This document shows, in pieces, positions 2,659-31,886 of a stretch of DNA of 31,886 nucleotides. Position numbers and translations under genes: made by a program. The stretch lies in IMG/VR virus record IMGVR_UViG_3300032249_000890, positions 1 through 31,886 of that record. One strand, given 5' to 3'. Below the pieces are notes generated by a model that saw nothing but the letters and a program-made list of their open reading frames with translations, was not told the origin of the DNA and did no database searches. The stretch comes from a virus. Positions within the stretch are counted from its first letter, which is position 1. The number at the start of each line of letters is the position of its first letter.

Positions 2659-3642
2659 TTAAGCTATGTATGACCTTGCCCATATATATAAATGAGCCGA
2701 TACACCTGCACCATGAGTCGTAGATCCTGTTCTTGGTGTTCCATTTGTTCCATCTGTTTTCGGATTATATCCAGATATTCTAGAAGTATTTTCTTGGGTT
2801 GCTGCGACACCTTGACCTAAATAATCTTGCCCAGATCCACCTTCAGCTCCTGAATGATAGTGACCTTGAAATCTATCCCTTACACGTAAACCGTTTTGAT
2901 GTCTTCCGCTTGTATCGTTAGGTGTTATAAATCCACGTCCTTTTAATTCAAATAATCTTGCCGTAGTAGATGATCCTGTTATACGATAATTATAAAATTC
3001 TACTGTCTGACTACCAGCCGATGGAGTTCCCGTAACTGTAATAACCCTAGTAGATGTATTAATATTAGTAATAGGAAATTCAGTACCTGCTACTGTGATA
3101 CTTCTATAATTTGTATAGCCACCATGAACAAGAACGTCTTCCGCTAAACTTGATAGTATTGCATCCGAACTTGTCGAAGTTGGCATTGTGATACTAGAAC
3201 TTGCTACTGTAGCAGTAAAAGAACTTACTTCTCCACTTGTTCCATCTAGATACTTAACTTTTAACGCTCTGAGATACGGTACTAATAAAGGATAATTTGT
3301 TGTTGATATATCCAAATTAATATTAATTTTACTTAAATTAATTGCTGGAAAAAAATTATCGGGAGTATTGATAGCAAAAGCCGATGGAGATTTATTTTCT
3401 TCAATGTAAAAAAATTCACCAATATTTTTAGAATATTTTATTGCATTAAATTTTATTAATTTCAAAATCTGAGCATTAGATCCAGCCGATTCTGCTATTG
3501 ATGCATCGGTTTGTATTGCAATCAATTCATCTTGCACGTCGTTCATAAAATTAGCCGTTACTACTGTTCCTTGTGGGTTATTGACAGCATCATAATCCAC
3601 AAAAGCATTTGCTACGTTACCAGGGCCCGCTATTTTTCTCAT
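2659..3642 (-). CDS. tail fibre / tail-collar type adhesin
   Basis: A 327-residue protein, the first fibre-like gene after the baseplate block. The N-terminus (FVDYDAVNNPQGTVVTANFMNDVQDEL) resembles the baseplate-attachment start of many short phage fibres. The middle is low-complexity Thr/Ser/Val beta sequence (SSFTATVASSSITMPTSTSS). The C-terminus carries GRGFITPNDTSGRHQNG and FQGHYHSG, then a Gly/Thr/Ser-rich tract ending HLYIWARSYIA, the arrangement of collar-type fibre tips where His residues bind metal or receptor. It lies one base after the gp48-like gene, as fibres do in Mu-like operons. Receptor specificity cannot be deduced. Confidence 0.78.
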   Translation of the reverse strand: MRKIAGPGNVANAFVDYDAVNNPQGTVVTANFMNDVQDELIAIQTDASIAESAGSNAQILKLIKFNAIKYSKNIGEFFYIEENKSPSAFAINTPDNFFPAINLSKININLDISTTNYPLLVPYLRALKVKYLDGTSGEVSSFTATVASSSITMPTSTSSDAILSSLAEDVLVHGGYTNYRSITVAGTEFPITNINTSTRVITVTGTPSAGSQTVEFYNYRITGSSTTARLFELKGRGFITPNDTSGRHQNGLRVRDRFQGHYHSGAEGGSGQDYLGQGVAATQENTSRISGYNPKTDGTNGTPRTGSTTHGAGVSAHLYIWARSYIA

Positions 3643-18927: not shown

Positions 18928-19224
18928 CTAATATTGTCTTACAAAATCCACCGATAACAGTCCATTTCCTTCCAAGTTTGCTAATTCAGCCTCTAATTCA
19001 TCCAATTCCATACGTAAATCTTTCAATGATCTGTATTTTGCTGATTGAATTCCTTGTCCAGTATTTAAAGTATACGATTCGGTTTTCAAATAATTTACGT
19101 CTGACAGTATAGTATTTATTGCTGAGATACGATTTCTAAGAGCTTGTTTTTCCGATTCAATGGACATGGAATACTTTCTAATTGTATTTTTTATTCTGTC
19201 AAGTATTTTTTTAAACTTCGCCAT
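18928..19224 (-). CDS. head-tail joining protein, lambda gpW-like
   Basis: A 98-residue helical protein in the gpW position between large terminase and portal. It begins with a basic helix, then SIESEKQALRNRISAINTILS and YRSLKDLRMELDELEAELANLEG, the heptad pattern of gpW-type proteins. gpW binds the head-tail interface and protects packaged DNA. It overlaps the terminase gene by 14 bases. Confidence 0.72.
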   Translation of the reverse strand: MAKFKKILDRIKNTIRKYSMSIESEKQALRNRISAINTILSDVNYLKTESYTLNTGQGIQSAKYRSLKDLRMELDELEAELANLEGNGLLSVDFVRQY

Positions 19225-21130
19225 TCTCTAGGCTATTCCAAAATTCATTCCATTCAATGTATTCCAATCCATTATTTTGAGCATATGCCCACGCTATATA
19301 ATAAACTGCACCCATAGCATACACCCTACAATCTAAAGCTTCGTTTCTTTCGTGTATTTTTTTCCATCGGTAAACAGTCGTTCCGCCTTTTGTTACCTCT
19401 GGCACACGATTTTCACTGAGATACATTTTAAAAATTTTATCTGTATAGTCAGACGGAAAATGGCAATAACCCCTAGGTATTTCGCCACCATCTCCCAAAG
19501 ATTTTTGGACATACCCATAAAATTCTTGTTTTAGTATGTCGGTAAACAAATCTACTCTTTCAATTCCGTAAGACGATAGAAAGGATGTTCGGAAAACTGG
19601 CCCTTTTCCTTTTCTACTAGATACCGAATCTCCTTGTATTGCAAAAACACCGCCTGCAAACTGAGATACAAATTGGTAAATTATATCCTGTCTATACCCG
19701 GAGTCGATAAAACATAAATCAATTATAGATCCATTGTAATCGGAATACAAAAATTCAGTCAAATCTGAATAGGGAGAGTTTTCAATTTGACTTGTATCTC
19801 CCGAAAAAACCCTGTATTCTATTGAATAACTTTCAAAATTTCTAAGCCATCCTACTACTTCCAATTCAATTCGATCGGCTTGTATGTCAACCCCACAAGT
19901 AATTAATAATGGTTTTACATCACTAGGTAAATGCCTGGAATCATACCCGCCTTTTCTAAGCATGACTTTTTCGTAGGCAATTGCATTTTTACGATTTTCC
20001 CATGGCATGCCGATGACTGTATTCTGAAATACTTTTAACTTTGAAAAATTACCTTCGCTTAGAATCCATTCTTCGCAAATTGATTCCCATGTTCTAAGTC
20101 CAATACCTGCATACCACGAAGGTAAATAGTAAGACACATGATTTTCTTTTTGGCTTTTTGCTGTTGAAATCCATTTTGCACCATTTTTAGGATCTAAAAA
20201 AAATGTTTTATCTGAGTTTTTCCATTTTGAATCACAAAAAATACAACGATAATGAACCGATTCCCTGATAAACTTACCATCTTTTTTTTCATAATGTATT
20301 CCACCTCGACCATTTTCATATGGATAAAAACTTAAAACTTGTAATTTTTTACATTTTTTGCATGGCACGTGATACTTTCTTTGGTCTCCTAGTTGGTATA
20401 ATCTCCAAATTCTTGACGATTCTAATTCTGTCGGAGTTGATCCATAGATTTTTTTTCTCGTGTCTTCGAATGCGTCGAATCGTCTTTCAATAATATCTAA
20501 AAAATCGCCTTCTTTTTTTATCTCTCCAAAACTTGCGTCGATCTCATCAAACAATCCGTATCTAATAGATACGTTTCTTAATTTGCTTCCTGAGTTTGGC
20601 CCAATTGCTAAAAGAAAACCTCCGAGAAATTCTTTTTTAGATTTCGTATTACCTGTTTTTTTATTTTGAAAATTGTCAGCCTGTGCAAAAATCTTGTCGC
20701 TAATATTTGCCGATTGAATCATTTTATCAATTCGCAATTCCATATTATTTTCAGCCATTGTTTGATCGCCACTTGTGAATATAGATGGCCCAGGTGATTC
20801 ATCAATAATCCATCCAATTAAATTTTCAAGCAATCCTACATTGTAACCAATTTGAGCCCCTTTAAGTATTGCAATACTTTCTATGTTCGATGACTCGGAA
20901 AAATTATCTATGATTTCTTTGAAATACGGAGTTGGAGTCCAAGAAAATTGTCCTGGCATGTCTGTAGTGCCTACTGGCATACTACGTTTATTTTCAGCCC
21001 ACTCGGAAGGTTTAACCGATGTGGTTTTTGTAGGAATAAATTTTGTTATACGGTTCGAGATTGATTTTTCAGATTTTAAAATCCAATCCGGATCTACAAT
21101 TTCAGATAATTCAATCATCCGATTCTCCAT
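19211..21130 (-). CDS. terminase large subunit (lambda gpA type)
   Basis: A 639-residue packaging ATPase/nuclease of the gpA family. Visible: an ATP-binding P-loop-like KGAQIGYNVG at 90-99 (compare lambda KSARVGYSK), Walker B-like LFDEID at 193-198, two CxxC pairs at 257/260 (PCKKCKK) and 296/299 (RCIFCD), a zinc ribbon between, and CGVDIQADRIE at 412-422 with Asp415 as probable nuclease metal ligand. gpA-type enzymes cut at cos sites, which supports cos packaging. It overlaps the small subunit gene by 20 bases. Confidence 0.94.
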   Translation of the reverse strand: MENRMIELSEIVDPDWILKSEKSISNRITKFIPTKTTSVKPSEWAENKRSMPVGTTDMPGQFSWTPTPYFKEIIDNFSESSNIESIAILKGAQIGYNVGLLENLIGWIIDESPGPSIFTSGDQTMAENNMELRIDKMIQSANISDKIFAQADNFQNKKTGNTKSKKEFLGGFLLAIGPNSGSKLRNVSIRYGLFDEIDASFGEIKKEGDFLDIIERRFDAFEDTRKKIYGSTPTELESSRIWRLYQLGDQRKYHVPCKKCKKLQVLSFYPYENGRGGIHYEKKDGKFIRESVHYRCIFCDSKWKNSDKTFFLDPKNGAKWISTAKSQKENHVSYYLPSWYAGIGLRTWESICEEWILSEGNFSKLKVFQNTVIGMPWENRKNAIAYEKVMLRKGGYDSRHLPSDVKPLLITCGVDIQADRIELEVVGWLRNFESYSIEYRVFSGDTSQIENSPYSDLTEFLYSDYNGSIIDLCFIDSGYRQDIIYQFVSQFAGGVFAIQGDSVSSRKGKGPVFRTSFLSSYGIERVDLFTDILKQEFYGYVQKSLGDGGEIPRGYCHFPSDYTDKIFKMYLSENRVPEVTKGGTTVYRWKKIHERNEALDCRVYAMGAVYYIAWAYAQNNGLEYIEWNEFWNSLENGEV

Positions 21131-21656
21131 TTTTTGCTTTTTCTAATGCTTTACTTACTAATTCTCTCCAAACCGTTTCGAGTTTTACCTTTACTTGTCT
21201 TACGTCGAATGCAATATTTTGTTTTTCTAATTCCGCTTGGATAATTGCCAAGCTTTGAGATGTTCCTTTTCTTGGTATCGTCAATATATTTGCAGATATT
21301 TGTTCTGCTAGTTTGGAAAGTTTTTGATCTACCGTACTACGAGGGATTAATATTCCAAGCAATTGAGCCCGTTTTGTTTTTACTGCTAGAGCCTGCTCTT
21401 GTTTTAATTGTATTTCAGCCTGTAGTTTTTGGTCTTCAAGACTGGCATACGAATTAATTTTTTCTTCAATATCCAAAATCTTAGTATTCTTTTTTGTCCC
21501 TTCGATAGATTCTAAATATTTTTTGGTTAATGGATGATCCGTATCAATCATGCCATCGCCATTTTCCTTAATTCTTTTTTCGGTTGCAAGTCGTCTTACA
21601 ATTCTGGAATCTTTTCCAATTCTACGACCGAATGCAGATTTATTTATTAGTGCCAT
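21111..21656 (-). CDS. terminase small subunit
   Basis: A 181-residue basic protein, first gene of the late operon, upstream of and overlapping the large subunit. Its start (NKSAFGRRIGKDSRIVRRLATEKRI) has the DNA-binding winged-helix pattern of Nu1-like subunits (recognition helix after AFGRRIG). The middle forms a coiled coil (LEIEEKINSYASLEDQKLQAEIQLKQEQA), used for multimerisation. No Shine-Dalgarno precedes the ATG (AT-rich leader only). It would bind cos-like sites in the adjacent non-coding region. Confidence 0.78.
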   Translation of the reverse strand: MALINKSAFGRRIGKDSRIVRRLATEKRIKENGDGMIDTDHPLTKKYLESIEGTKKNTKILDIEEKINSYASLEDQKLQAEIQLKQEQALAVKTKRAQLLGILIPRSTVDQKLSKLAEQISANILTIPRKGTSQSLAIIQAELEKQNIAFDVRQVKVKLETVWRELVSKALEKAKNGESDD

Positions 21657-21930
21657 TTTTATATTTAAGTAATATTTTCATTATTAAAACAAGTATAAAA
21701 TTTTTAGTAATAAAATTTATCGTCCTAAGTGCCCAAAAATTGGCTGTCAGACAAAAAATAAAGCATGTTTGAGTCAATCCATTTTGCTATAGACTTGTCA
21801 CAGTACCTTTTGATTTTTTTGCCCTTCACGCATCACAGATTAACTTGTAAGACGTTTAAAACTACTTTACCATGCCCGACCTACAAAGCTTTTAAAATGG
21901 CTTAAAATCAATTGTATTGCGTATTTTTAT
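21657..21930. other. non-coding leader of the late operon
   Basis: AT-rich, no credible ORF. It should carry the late promoter (reading - strand) and probably part of cos. I find no convincing -35/-10 pair and no strong hairpin here. Confidence 0.5.
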
Positions 21931-21935
21931 ACCTT

Positions 21936-22342
21936 GGCTAGTTGGCTAGTTTTACTATCCATGGTGTCTAACGCAAACTATCCACGTTTAACCTTGATTC
22001 TATTGACTAAAATTGATGCTGTCCCAGTTTTTTGGGCTGGATAGTTAAAAAATACCTTGCGAGCTATTATAACTAAGATATTGTATTTCATAATTTTTCA
22101 TTTTAACTTTTTTTTATATATAGAGGAATATATCTATATCCATGTTTTTTACTATATATATATATATATATTTTATAAAATATATATATAATATAAGGGA
22201 AAAACGGGTTTTTTCTTTGGATAGTTGATGGATAGTTACTGTCTAGTTATTTTTCGAAATACAAAAAACATTGATTCTATTGATTCATTTTGTCTAGTTT
22301 GTTGGATAGTTTTACATCCGAAAACGTCCAAAACTGGGACAG
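21936..22342. repeat. iteron-type control region (origin / partition / cos candidate)
   Basis: Eight-base elements with consensus GKMTAGTT occur at 21936 and 21944 (tandem GGCTAGTT), 22039, 22219, 22230, 22304 (GGATAGTT), 22241 and 22292 (GTCTAGTT), with inverted copies at 21954-21960 (ACTATCC) and 21976-21983 (AACTATCC). TTGATTCTATTGA occurs at 21994-22006 and 22271-22283 as a direct repeat. CTGTCCCAGTTTT (22019-22031) is matched by AAAACTGGGACAG (22330-22342). Both repeat sets and the iterons flank a very AT-rich centre (about 22080-22198). This matches iteron plus duplex-unwinding architecture. cos or a partition site is possible. Confidence 0.8.
22080..22198. repeat. AT-rich core with (TA)n tract
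   Basis: Almost purely A/T, with alternating TATATA at 22151-22170 and 22180-22193. It lies between the two iteron clusters and is the most easily melted segment of the window, so it could be an unwinding element. Confidence 0.75.
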
Positions 22343-22351
22343 AAATAAAAC

Positions 22352-22379
22352 TTGACTACTAAGATACGTTATGTATTAC
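22352..22379 (+). promoter_or_regulatory. candidate promoter for the right arm
   Basis: TTGACT (22352-22357), 16 bases, TATTAC (22374-22379), 118 bases upstream of the first rightward gene. It lies just beyond the right inverted repeat. Confidence 0.4.
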
Positions 22380-22496: not shown

Positions 22497-22700
22497 ATGG
22501 AATTTAAATTTGATTTTAAAGATATTCTGACATACGGAAGCTTTATAGTTTCTTTGTCGGTCGCATATTATACCCACGAAATACGTATCGTTAAGCTAGA
22601 AAGCGAAACCCAACAAGATCGCAAAATAGTCCAAGAAATTAAAGATGAATTACGTGAAATAAAAGCCGATGTAAAACAATTATTAATAAAGGTGAAATAA
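22497..22700 (+). CDS. small membrane protein with coiled-coil tail (holin/XhlA-like candidate)
   Basis: A 67-residue protein with one hydrophobic segment (about 10-26, ILTYGSFIVSLSVAYYT) followed by a charged helix of heptads (RIVKLESETQQDRKIVQEIKDELREIKADVKQLL). One helix plus coiled coil is the layout of XhlA/BhlA-type holin-associated proteins, although in XhlA the order is reversed. The ATG lacks a Shine-Dalgarno. It is followed one base later by another membrane gene. A lysis role is inference. Confidence 0.6.
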   Translation: MEFKFDFKDILTYGSFIVSLSVAYYTHEIRIVKLESETQQDRKIVQEIKDELREIKADVKQLLIKVK

Positions 22701-25790: not shown

Positions 25791-26466
25791 TTCGGTCGAG
25801 CTAATTGGAATTTATGGAGACGATGAGATCATTGCTTGTAGTGCATGGACAAGCACATCCAGGGAGTTGACAAAAGACAAGAAAAATAGAATTAATCAAT
25901 TGATTAATGAACTATGGAATAATAATCATGAGACTCCATTCGAAAAGGGAGTAGTACATTTTCTTGTCAATTGTGATATTGCTTCACATATCCATCTTTT
26001 GAAACATCGTATGTCTAGTTTGAATGCTGAGTCAGCGAGATACAAAGAATTAAAAGAAGATAAGTTTTATTTACCAAAGGATTGGATAGGGATTAATGTT
26101 AATGAAAAACATTATAATTTTAATTATTTGAATAATCAGGCACAGGCAAATGATTATGAATATTTATGGAGAAAGGCATTGTTTGAGTTTAGTTCGATAG
26201 GAAATGAATTATACCACAAATGCCTGGAAGACTTAACGCCAATACTCGGACGTAAAAGAGCAAAAGAATCGGCAAGATATTTTAAAACTTATAATAGCCA
26301 GATTCAAAGTGATATTATGTTCAATATGCGAAGCTTTGCTAATTTTTTAAAACTAAGAAAATCGGAACATGCACAATTGGAAATCAATGAGATTGCTACT
26401 CAGATGCTAGAACTTGTAAGACAGACTGGAAAATTTAACCATACACTAAATGCCTGGGGATATTAA
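25783..26466 (+). CDS. thyX: FAD-dependent thymidylate synthase
   Basis: A 227-residue flavin enzyme that methylates dUMP to dTMP with methylene-tetrahydrofolate and NADPH. The ThyX signature is at 74-87: KHRMSSLNAESARY, compared with the usual RHR-x7-S. The first Arg is Lys here and the usual NEQS is NAES. CSAWTSTS near the start, ETPFEKGVVHF and a C-terminal NLLKLR-type FANFLKLRKSEHAQLEINEIATQML segment (RxxxHAQxEI) complete the family. Both catalytic Arg/His and the Ser are retained. It supports DNA synthesis of an AT-rich phage genome. Confidence 0.95.
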   Translation: MNNSVELIGIYGDDEIIACSAWTSTSRELTKDKKNRINQLINELWNNNHETPFEKGVVHFLVNCDIASHIHLLKHRMSSLNAESARYKELKEDKFYLPKDWIGINVNEKHYNFNYLNNQAQANDYEYLWRKALFEFSSIGNELYHKCLEDLTPILGRKRAKESARYFKTYNSQIQSDIMFNMRSFANFLKLRKSEHAQLEINEIATQMLELVRQTGKFNHTLNAWGY

Positions 26467-29571: not shown

Positions 29572-29731
29572 TAAAAAGAAATACTATTATCCACAATGGG
29601 CTAAACAAAAAACTATAAAAATAAATAATGATCTACATGATAAAATAAAAGAATATTGCGATACTAATGGTATTAATATTTATAGTTTTACCGAACAAGC
29701 TTTAAAGTTACATTTATCGAATAAAAGATAG
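29561..29731 (+). CDS. small DNA-binding candidate (RHH-like)
   Basis: A 56-residue protein (YYYPQWAKQKTIKINNDLHDKIKEYCDTNGINIYSFTEQALKLHLSNK): a KTIKIN strand, then two helices separated by a turn (GINIYSF), the RHH layout. AAGGAATTTATAA precedes the ATG. Its TAG shares its G with the GTG of the primase-helicase gene, so the two are coupled. Confidence 0.6.
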   Translation: MKTDKKKYYYPQWAKQKTIKINNDLHDKIKEYCDTNGINIYSFTEQALKLHLSNKR

Positions 29732-31886
29732 TGGATAAATCTATTTTTGAGATTGCCAAGGATAGGATTGATACCTATTCCATAGAAAAGCTGTTTCCAG
29801 GTGGAAAATGGAAAAATAAAGAGTATTGGATAAGATCGCCATTAAGATCGGATTCAAGACCAAATTCTTTTCATATTTCCAAAGATGGAATGTATTACGA
29901 TCATGCTACCAATGAGGGGGGAGATTTTATAGACTTGGTATCTCGGTCTAAAAATATTTCTTTAAAAGAATCCGCTGAATTAATAGCCAACGAAATACAG
30001 ACTAAAGCTCCAAAAAAAACAAAACCAAAAATAGAAAAGGGCAAAGCAATAATTCCTATTCCGGACGATAAATTAAAAACGATTAAAAACTATGTAAGCA
30101 GTGATTTTTTTATAAACGAATTTGGAGATCCTAAATCTTATTTTTCCTATTCGAGAAATAATAAAACTGAATTTGTAGTCGTTCGATTCGAAAAAAATAA
30201 TACTAAACAAACCATCCCTTTTTATTATTCCGAAAAAAATAAATGGGAATCGGGCCGACCATATAGCGATAATTTTCCTATTTTTGGATTGGATGAACTA
30301 CCTAAAAACCCTGACTTACCTGTATTGATTGTCGAGGGAGAAACCTGTGGAATTGTAAATGTAAATGGCTACATAGTTGTATCGTGGTTGGGAGGAAGTC
30401 AAGCGTATGACAAGACAGATTGGTCACCATTAAAAAACAGAAAAGTTGTATTATGGTCTGATCGTGATACTAAGCCAAAATTAGAAAAACATGAACAACC
30501 TGGCATGAAGGCTATGCTAGGAATAAAGGCAATTTTGGGTCATGGTAAAGTATTGGATGTTTACAAATTGTCTGACAAAAAAGATGGTTGGGACATTGCA
30601 GACGCTGAAAAAGAAAAATTAGATTTACTTGAAATTATAAATACTACACCTGAATTTTCAACAGGTAAAACCGAAATAATAAATAATAATAATAAAAATA
30701 TAGAAGAACAGTTTTTTAGATTTCTTGGATACTCGGATGATTTGCACTATTTTTTACTCACAAAGGAGAGAATTGTAGTTAGTATTGCAAGATCCGGATT
30801 TACATCTTCCAAAATTTTACAGCTTGCACCGTTAGCGTTTTGGTCAATCTGTGATTTTGTTTCACCTCATGGGAATATAAAAGTGACACAAGCACAGGAT
30901 TATATTCAAACAAAATCACAAGAAATTGGTAGGTTTGATTCTTTAAAAATTAGAGGGACGGGAGTTTGGAGGGATGAAGAAAAATTTGTCTTAAATACCG
31001 GATCTTGTTTGGAATTTCCTAACGGAAAAAAATTGGAATATCACGAATTTAAAAGTAAATATTTTTATGTTTCAAGTAGTATTACATTCGATGAACTCGG
31101 AGAAAAAGAATCCGATTACGCCGATGGATTGCAATTACAAGGTTTGTTTGATTCTCAAAAATGGGTATCTAAAAAATCTGGTTTGGCATGTTTGGGATGG
31201 TCGTTAATTTCCCCTATGGCTGGGGCATTAACATGGCGTCCTCATATATGGATCGAAGGAAAAAAGGGAACTGGCAAAAGTTACGTTTTAGAAAATCTAA
31301 TGGAAAGACTTTTAGGAAGCTTTGTTTTCAAAGGTTCAGGAGGGTCAACAGAGTCAGCTGTAAGACGATCCGTACGAAATACAGCGTTACCGATAATTTT
31401 GGACGAAATGAAAATTACAGTCAAAAATGACGAAAATAAAATTTATGAAAAACTAAATTTGGCACGTGATGCAAGTAGTGATATTTCAGCGATTAGAGCA
31501 GTGACAGCGAGAGACGGGGGAGTAGATCTTTTTGTAGTACGGTCAATGTTTTGTTTTTCATCCGATCAACCTCCGCAAATTGACCATGCTATAGATAGTA
31601 GAATACTGAGAGCAGAATTGAAAAGCGTTCCGAATGAAGAACTTGCCGAGTTTACAAAAAACAAAAAAAGGGATTCTAAAGTTTGGATTAATTGCTTAAA
31701 AAACCCTGAAAAATTCAGAAAAAGAATGTTTAATCGAATTGAACGAATAACAAAAGACATTCAATTTTTATCAGAATATTTTTTGAGTATTACGGGAAAT
31801 CAAAGGGAAGCTGACAATTGGAGTCCGATTATTGCGTCTATATGGCATCTTACTAATGACAATGAAATACAAAATAGCAAAGAAGG
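29731..31886 (+). CDS. primase-helicase, 3' end missing
   Basis: An uninterrupted frame from GTG 29731 to the window edge (718 codons visible). N-terminal WIRSPLRSDSRPNSFHISKDGMYYDHATNEGGDFIDLV resembles the DnaG-type zinc domain, but the cysteines are missing. TOPRIM features follow: PVLIVEGET (about 198-206) and VVLWSDRDT (about 240-248). A helicase/ATPase part begins near 500: WIEGKKGTGKSYV Walker A (about 506-518) and LPIILDEMK Walker B (about 553-561), then a conserved Arg/Gln-rich region with SSDQPPQIDHA. It probably primes and unwinds at the phage origin. The alternative start, a downstream ATG at about 29888, would lose the N-terminal domain. Confidence 0.9.
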   Translation, partial: MDKSIFEIAKDRIDTYSIEKLFPGGKWKNKEYWIRSPLRSDSRPNSFHISKDGMYYDHATNEGGDFIDLVSRSKNISLKESAELIANEIQTKAPKKTKPKIEKGKAIIPIPDDKLKTIKNYVSSDFFINEFGDPKSYFSYSRNNKTEFVVVRFEKNNTKQTIPFYYSEKNKWESGRPYSDNFPIFGLDELPKNPDLPVLIVEGETCGIVNVNGYIVVSWLGGSQAYDKTDWSPLKNRKVVLWSDRDTKPKLEKHEQPGMKAMLGIKAILGHGKVLDVYKLSDKKDGWDIADAEKEKLDLLEIINTTPEFSTGKTEIINNNNKNIEEQFFRFLGYSDDLHYFLLTKERIVVSIARSGFTSSKILQLAPLAFWSICDFVSPHGNIKVTQAQDYIQTKSQEIGRFDSLKIRGTGVWRDEEKFVLNTGSCLEFPNGKKLEYHEFKSKYFYVSSSITFDELGEKESDYADGLQLQGLFDSQKWVSKKSGLACLGWSLISPMAGALTWRPHIWIEGKKGTGKSYVLENLMERLLGSFVFKGSGGSTESAVRRSVRNTALPIILDEMKITVKNDENKIYEKLNLARDASSDISAIRAVTARDGGVDLFVVRSMFCFSSDQPPQIDHAIDSRILRAELKSVPNEELAEFTKNKKRDSKVWINCLKNPEKFRKRMFNRIERITKDIQFLSEYFLSITGNQREADNWSPIIASIWHLTNDNEIQNSKE

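Follow-up and report, generated by a model that had tools for sequence, protein, structure and literature searches.

The DNA analysed here (the window, genome G000) is a virus record of 31,886 bases, classed linear, that belongs to an uncultivated tailed phage. Genes for sheath, tube and baseplate proteins indicate a contractile tail and are found together with genes for the major head protein and the portal; the phage is most likely a cos-type myophage. All late genes extend leftward from the gene of the small terminase subunit, terS, while nearly all others extend rightward from a holin-like gene. The replication and recombination functions encoded are a primase-helicase, ThyX, RecE/RecT, a helicase and an endonuclease. 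Judged by its gene content the phage looks lytic, with neither integrase nor repressor among the profiled proteins. Phage and plasmid collections gave no near-DNA match to the window, Rfam gave 0 matches, and a scan of four pieces from relatives detected no tRNA. The C-terminal region of the tail fibre (window 2662-3405) is about 82-85% identical between near-identical relatives, against mostly 90-98% elsewhere; host-recognition tips often vary more in this manner.

The gap between the two divergent gene blocks is occupied by a repeat array (Table 1). It was compared in five genomes, three of them near-identical and one partial: the window, its ~94% identical relatives G004 (38,326 bp) and G005 (36,468 bp), the more distant G003 (38,578 bp) and contig L004. 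G003, G004 and G005 come from different metagenomes, namely 3300032286, 3300032335 and 3300017917. Nine exact copies of the octamer GKMTAGTT are present in 21930-22345 (starts at 21936, 21944, 21976 on the minus strand, 22039, 22219, 22230, 22241, 22292 and 22304), and a single near-match is found at 21953 on the minus strand. Only one exact octamer occurs elsewhere in the window, at 26013, and 2000 dinucleotide shuffles of the array region yielded a mean of 0.06 copies and a maximum of 2. The array also features a 13-bp direct repeat, exact in its two copies, and a 13-bp inverted repeat. A non-A/T direct repeat of that length appears in 0.3% of shuffles and an inverted one in 1.9%.

A preliminary description of the locus, made from the letters alone, had announced about ten octamers, both 13-base repeats and two mirrored modules, each with iterons, one direct repeat and one inverted-repeat arm, and had pointed to shuffling as a check. 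The repeats are where it placed them, both modules have the composition that it gave, and shuffled sequence falls short of nine octamers, but the tenth copy is only the near-match. The mirrored arrangement holds for the one inverted pair. Eight of the nine octamers and both copies of TTGATTCTATTGA have the same direction, and the order in both modules is octamers, TTGATTCTATTGA, inverted-repeat arm; the modules are thus tandem with one inverted pair and not mirror images. DnaA boxes were discarded as an identity for the octamers: by eye GGATAGTT resembles part of TTATCCACA, while GGCTAGTT and GTCTAGTT do not.

Table 1. Features of the region between the terminase genes and the rightward gene block, with the distant primase-helicase gene (positions in the window)
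Feature	Position	Strand	Remarks
terL, large terminase subunit, lambda gpA type	19211..21130	-	GpA_ATPase + GpA_nuclease; phrog_15
terS, small terminase subunit	21111..21656	-	phrog_57, E 1.5e-14; start about 110 bp left of cosN
TTAGGAC, candidate terminase site	21722..21728	-	left end 52-58 bp; position kept in 4/5 genomes, missing in G003
TGTCTG, cos-proximal element (relatives: TGACTG/TGAGTG)	21748..21753	-	left end 27-32 bp; distance constant in 5 genomes; putative role
cosN, putative 14-bp cohesive-end sequence TGTTTGAGTCAATC, minus strand GATTGACTCAAACA	21766..21779	.	TTGA-G-TCAA dyad; ends of G003, G004, G005
ACAGTACCTTTT, candidate cosQ-like element	21800..21811	+	about 20 bp inside right end; putative role
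Octamers 1-2, module 1	21936..21951	+	GGCTAGTT x2; kept in G004, G005, L004
Octamer 3, module 1	21976..21983	-	GGATAGTT; kept in G004, G005, L004
13-bp direct repeat TTGATTCTATTGA, copy 1	21994..22006	+	conserved even in G003
Inverted-repeat arm CTGTCCCAGTTTT	22019..22031	+	identical in G004, G005; lost in G003
Octamer 4	22039..22046	+	GGATAGTT
A/T core, candidate DNA-unwinding element	about 22097..22196	.	lowest stability, conservation, A/T run
Octamers 5-7, module 2	22219..22248	+	GGATAGTT, GGATAGTT, GTCTAGTT; 11-bp spacing
13-bp direct repeat TTGATTCTATTGA, copy 2	22271..22283	+	exact
Octamers 8-9	22292..22311	+	GTCTAGTT, GGATAGTT; 12-bp spacing
Inverted-repeat arm AAAACTGGGACAG	22330..22342	+	100% complementary to CTGTCCCAGTTTT
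Possible rightward promoter TTGACT-16-TATTAC	22352..22379	+	adjoins array; predicted by eye, weak; absent from consensus hits
Holin-like gene, first gene right of array	22497..22700	+	phrog_10340, E 4.5e-9
Primase-helicase, candidate initiator	29731..31884	+	phrog_35358, E 2.6e-58; truncated by window end; 860 aa in G004

The core between the modules is A/T-rich, as had been described, and for 44 bp without interruption (22153-22196) it consists of A/T only. No other stretch of 60 or 100 bp in the window is less stable (z 4.2-4.3), and the same applies to the halves of G004 and G005 that contain the array; 40 bp of the core (22146-22185) are identical in three genomes. In the 20-kb half of G003 the core ranks third at 60 bp and fourth at 100 bp. 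These properties fit an unwinding element, at which the duplex would melt. The minimum of the GC skew, a check named in the preliminary description, is also located at the array. It is attributed to gene direction, since third codon positions show a small and inconsistent skew and fourfold sites almost none in either arm, and was dropped as evidence for an origin. Strand composition showed no switch independent of genes, a weak criterion in small phages.

The G003, G004 and G005 contigs each begin and end on one common 14 bp, GATTGACTCAAACM. Every contig starts with GATTGACTCAAAC plus one base, and this 14th base (C, A and C, respectively) is identical at the two ends of each contig. Contigs of 5' cos phages are expected to share one short terminal sequence at their ends (PMC5557969), and here 14 bp are shared by three independent contigs. 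The common sequence probably represents physical 14-nt 5' cohesive ends, which would put cosN at 21766-21779. L004 and the window both read through this position, as joined forms would. Because cosN is outside the array, the latter begins 157 bp in from the right genome end, on the far side from terS. The array itself was thereby ruled out as cosN.

Conserved elements border cosN on both sides. ACAG.ACCTTTT, at 35-46 from the right end, keeps a constant distance to cosN in all five genomes, like TGTCTG on the left, and TTAGGAC (52-58) falls at the place of lambda R3, which covers bp 50-65 (PMC9026076). On the scale of that comparison, where terS starts at 191 in lambda and at 89 in N15 (PMC9026076), its start is at 124 here. 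Judged by position, cosN seems to have cosQ/cosB-like elements of its own at fixed distances, in which case the minimal cos would not extend to the array. The array is 157, 165 or 187 bp from cosN, depending on the genome. The suggestion that the segment would suit cos was thus correct in that a cos is nearby, though cosN is to the left of the array and has its own conserved surroundings.

The words of the array are conserved in G004, G005 and L004 and are exchanged in G003. In G004 and G005 all nine octamers occupy identical positions and stay within the consensus. In L004, where module 1 is visible, octamers (23/24 bases) and TTGATTCTATTGA (13/13) are identical to the window against 141/202 other bases. 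The G003 array is about 40-60% identical to that of the window over much of its length; it retains the layout, the TTGATTYTATTGR elements (TTGATTTTATTGA and TTGATTTTATTGG) and the A/T core but has no inverted-repeat arms. Its octamers are replaced by a YGTCYYA-like word: GKCYYA is present in 12 copies against 0.78 expected, some of them 11 bp apart, and on inspection several align with octamer positions. This word was picked after viewing the G003 sequence, which makes its excess look somewhat more significant than it is. A co-evolving DNA-binding protein would be expected to leave such a trace, a new word on an unchanged layout. In the window the G003-type words GTCCTAA (21722-21728) and CGTCTTA (about 21847-21853) are found as single copies near cosN, a count about equal to chance by rough estimate.

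One candidate for such a protein is TerS. The octamers would then be TerS sites in a large cosB across cosN from terS, the A/T core would form a bend between the two modules, and packaging would start at the right end, a reading that we consider unlikely. The phage has a gpA-type terminase and its array is only 157 bp from cosN. Repeats around an A/T core parallel lambda cosB, in which repeated R sites surround a bend site (PMC9026076). At position 21, in the helix presumed to recognise DNA, TerS has R in phages with the TAGTT word and G in G003; since this residue follows the word, TerS stays among the possible readers. An 11-bp match to cosN, ATTGACTCAAA, occurs in module 1 of G003 and G004 (window region 21994-22015), but the window, G005 and L004 carry altered forms, so the match may be due to chance. 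The TerS DNA-binding domain (first 55 alignment columns) does not co-vary with the octamers in these few genomes: the window is 52% identical (28/54) to L004, which has the same words, and 59% identical (32/54) to G003, which has different ones. Genomes that share the word have TerS domains as divergent as genomes that do not, also at the residue that aligns by eye with Glu24, the specificity residue of lambda TerS (PMC4669245), which is T, K or E. Also against packaging, lambda-type R sites are on the terS side while the array is on the other, at a variable distance, and the fixed-distance elements adjoin cosN itself, one of them at the R3 position.

The other candidate readers are the 860-aa primase-helicase and a small putative HTH protein encoded beside it in G004 and G005. 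The C-terminus of the primase-helicase is 67-80% conserved while the word changes. The second protein, of 136 aa (L029:6643-7050, minus strand), follows the primase at a place before which the window ends, and its gene was not found in G003, the relative with different words. It had no profile or family match, and its HTH was assigned by eye. AlphaFold models of both proteins (pLDDT 37 for the primase-helicase and 57 for the putative HTH protein) are too poor for use. Genes for a helicase-methyltransferase fusion, 32% identical, are present at differing places in G004 (L029:7094-9634) and G003 (L031:16511-18688), without a match in G005 or the window contig.

A phage regulator bound to the octamers might instead control the rightward unit, and perhaps terS, from an operator or enhancer. 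The array separates the two divergent gene blocks, it is adjoined by a possible rightward promoter, and the putative HTH protein is absent from G003, where the word differs. We regard this role as quite unlikely: nine sites spread over 370 bp, with a 100-bp A/T core among them, are excessive for an operator, which explains poorly both the core and the number of sites, the promoter scan is at chance level (5 against 6.6 expected), and the HTH assignment has the weaknesses given above. Related lysis genes also occur without the TTGATT element. Scans of genome contigs with TerL found no relatives, and those with the primase, the capsid protein and the TTGATT element no more array-bearing phages, but a scan with a 72-aa protein reached the phage L064, whose lysis cassette is related. 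This cassette has neither the TTGATTYTATTGA element nor cosN, which shows that the array is not simply part of the lysis cassette. In L064 (2785-4197) and L065 the cassette adjoins unrelated structural genes and reads as mobile; identities are 79% for the holin, 51% for the 72-aa protein and 82% for a membrane protein on the opposite strand.

The preliminary description had also offered a partition site. Some centromeres contain iterons and inverted repeats, as this array does. A parS-like or other maintenance site is nevertheless very improbable for a phage whose gene content looks lytic, and neither ParA nor ParB was found among the proteins profiled in the window and its relatives, a set that covers the small right-arm proteins of the latter in part. 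The same profiled proteins include no RepA/O homologue, in agreement with the earlier remark that no RepA-like gene is visible.

The array may serve this cos-type myophage as an iteron-type replication origin, located at the right end of its linear genome; the chances for and against seem to us evenly balanced. The origin proposed in the preliminary description stays the best reading, though unproven. A short word occurs above chance at conserved positions (nine against 0.06, in three genomes), and an easily melted AT-rich region is adjacent (z 4.3 over 100 bp, weaker in G003). An iteron-type origin is favoured by the contrast between the fixed-distance neighbours of cosN and the varying distance from cosN to the array. 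An origin would account for the iterons, the core and the word switch, and also for the fact that the array keeps no set spacing from cosN. The replication and recombination genes named above, the primase-helicase among them, and the lack of co-variation between TerS and the octamers also speak for this reading, as does the L064 cassette without the element. Against it count the G003 core, only third or fourth least stable, and the loss of the G003 inverted-repeat arms, and the proximity to cosN is equally expected from a packaging role.

If the array is an origin, the 14-nt ends would join at cosN after infection, and both modules would be bound by a phage initiator at their octamers and paired TTGATTYTATTGR elements. 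The protein-DNA complex would strain the A/T core between the modules until it melts, and the phage primase-helicase would be loaded there. A bolder and unlikely extension is that this cos-proximal origin swapped its initiator-word pair (TGKMTAGTT to YGTCYYA) while layout, TTGATTYTATTGR and melting core stayed constant, so that one compact end module would control replication, and possibly packaging, via an undescribed initiator. For this phage group, contig ends were enough to fix the probable physical ends of the genome, and next to them is a conserved repeat module with a switching word. If the module is an origin, it would give a group of phage primase-helicases an initiator-iteron pair that can be tested.

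The array is of a familiar element type, and at most its place beside cos and its word switch are unusual. It shares with iteron theta origins of plasmids, and with lambda ori and its O iterons, short repeated words, several of them about one helical turn apart, an adjoining A/T region that melts more easily than any other, and words that can switch among relatives on a constant layout. In contrast to these, two modules flank the core, with extra 13-bp direct and inverted repeats, and the array is neither within nor beside an initiator gene but next to cos; a RepA/O homologue was not found. In satellite phage P4, ori and crr carry 8-bp iterons in two blocks, and the alpha primase-helicase also recognises the origin. 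The present phage too has a primase-helicase, which may or may not be of the P4 type; its model is poor (pLDDT 37), and its C-terminus is conserved while the word changes. The lambda cosQ-cosN-cosB region is matched by the gpA-type TerL, by terS adjoining cosN, by the probable short 5' cohesive ends and by conserved elements that flank cosN on either side at fixed distances. It differs in its cohesive ends, of 12 nt against 14 nt here and unrelated in sequence, whereas the large repeat array of this phage is placed away from terS at a variable distance.
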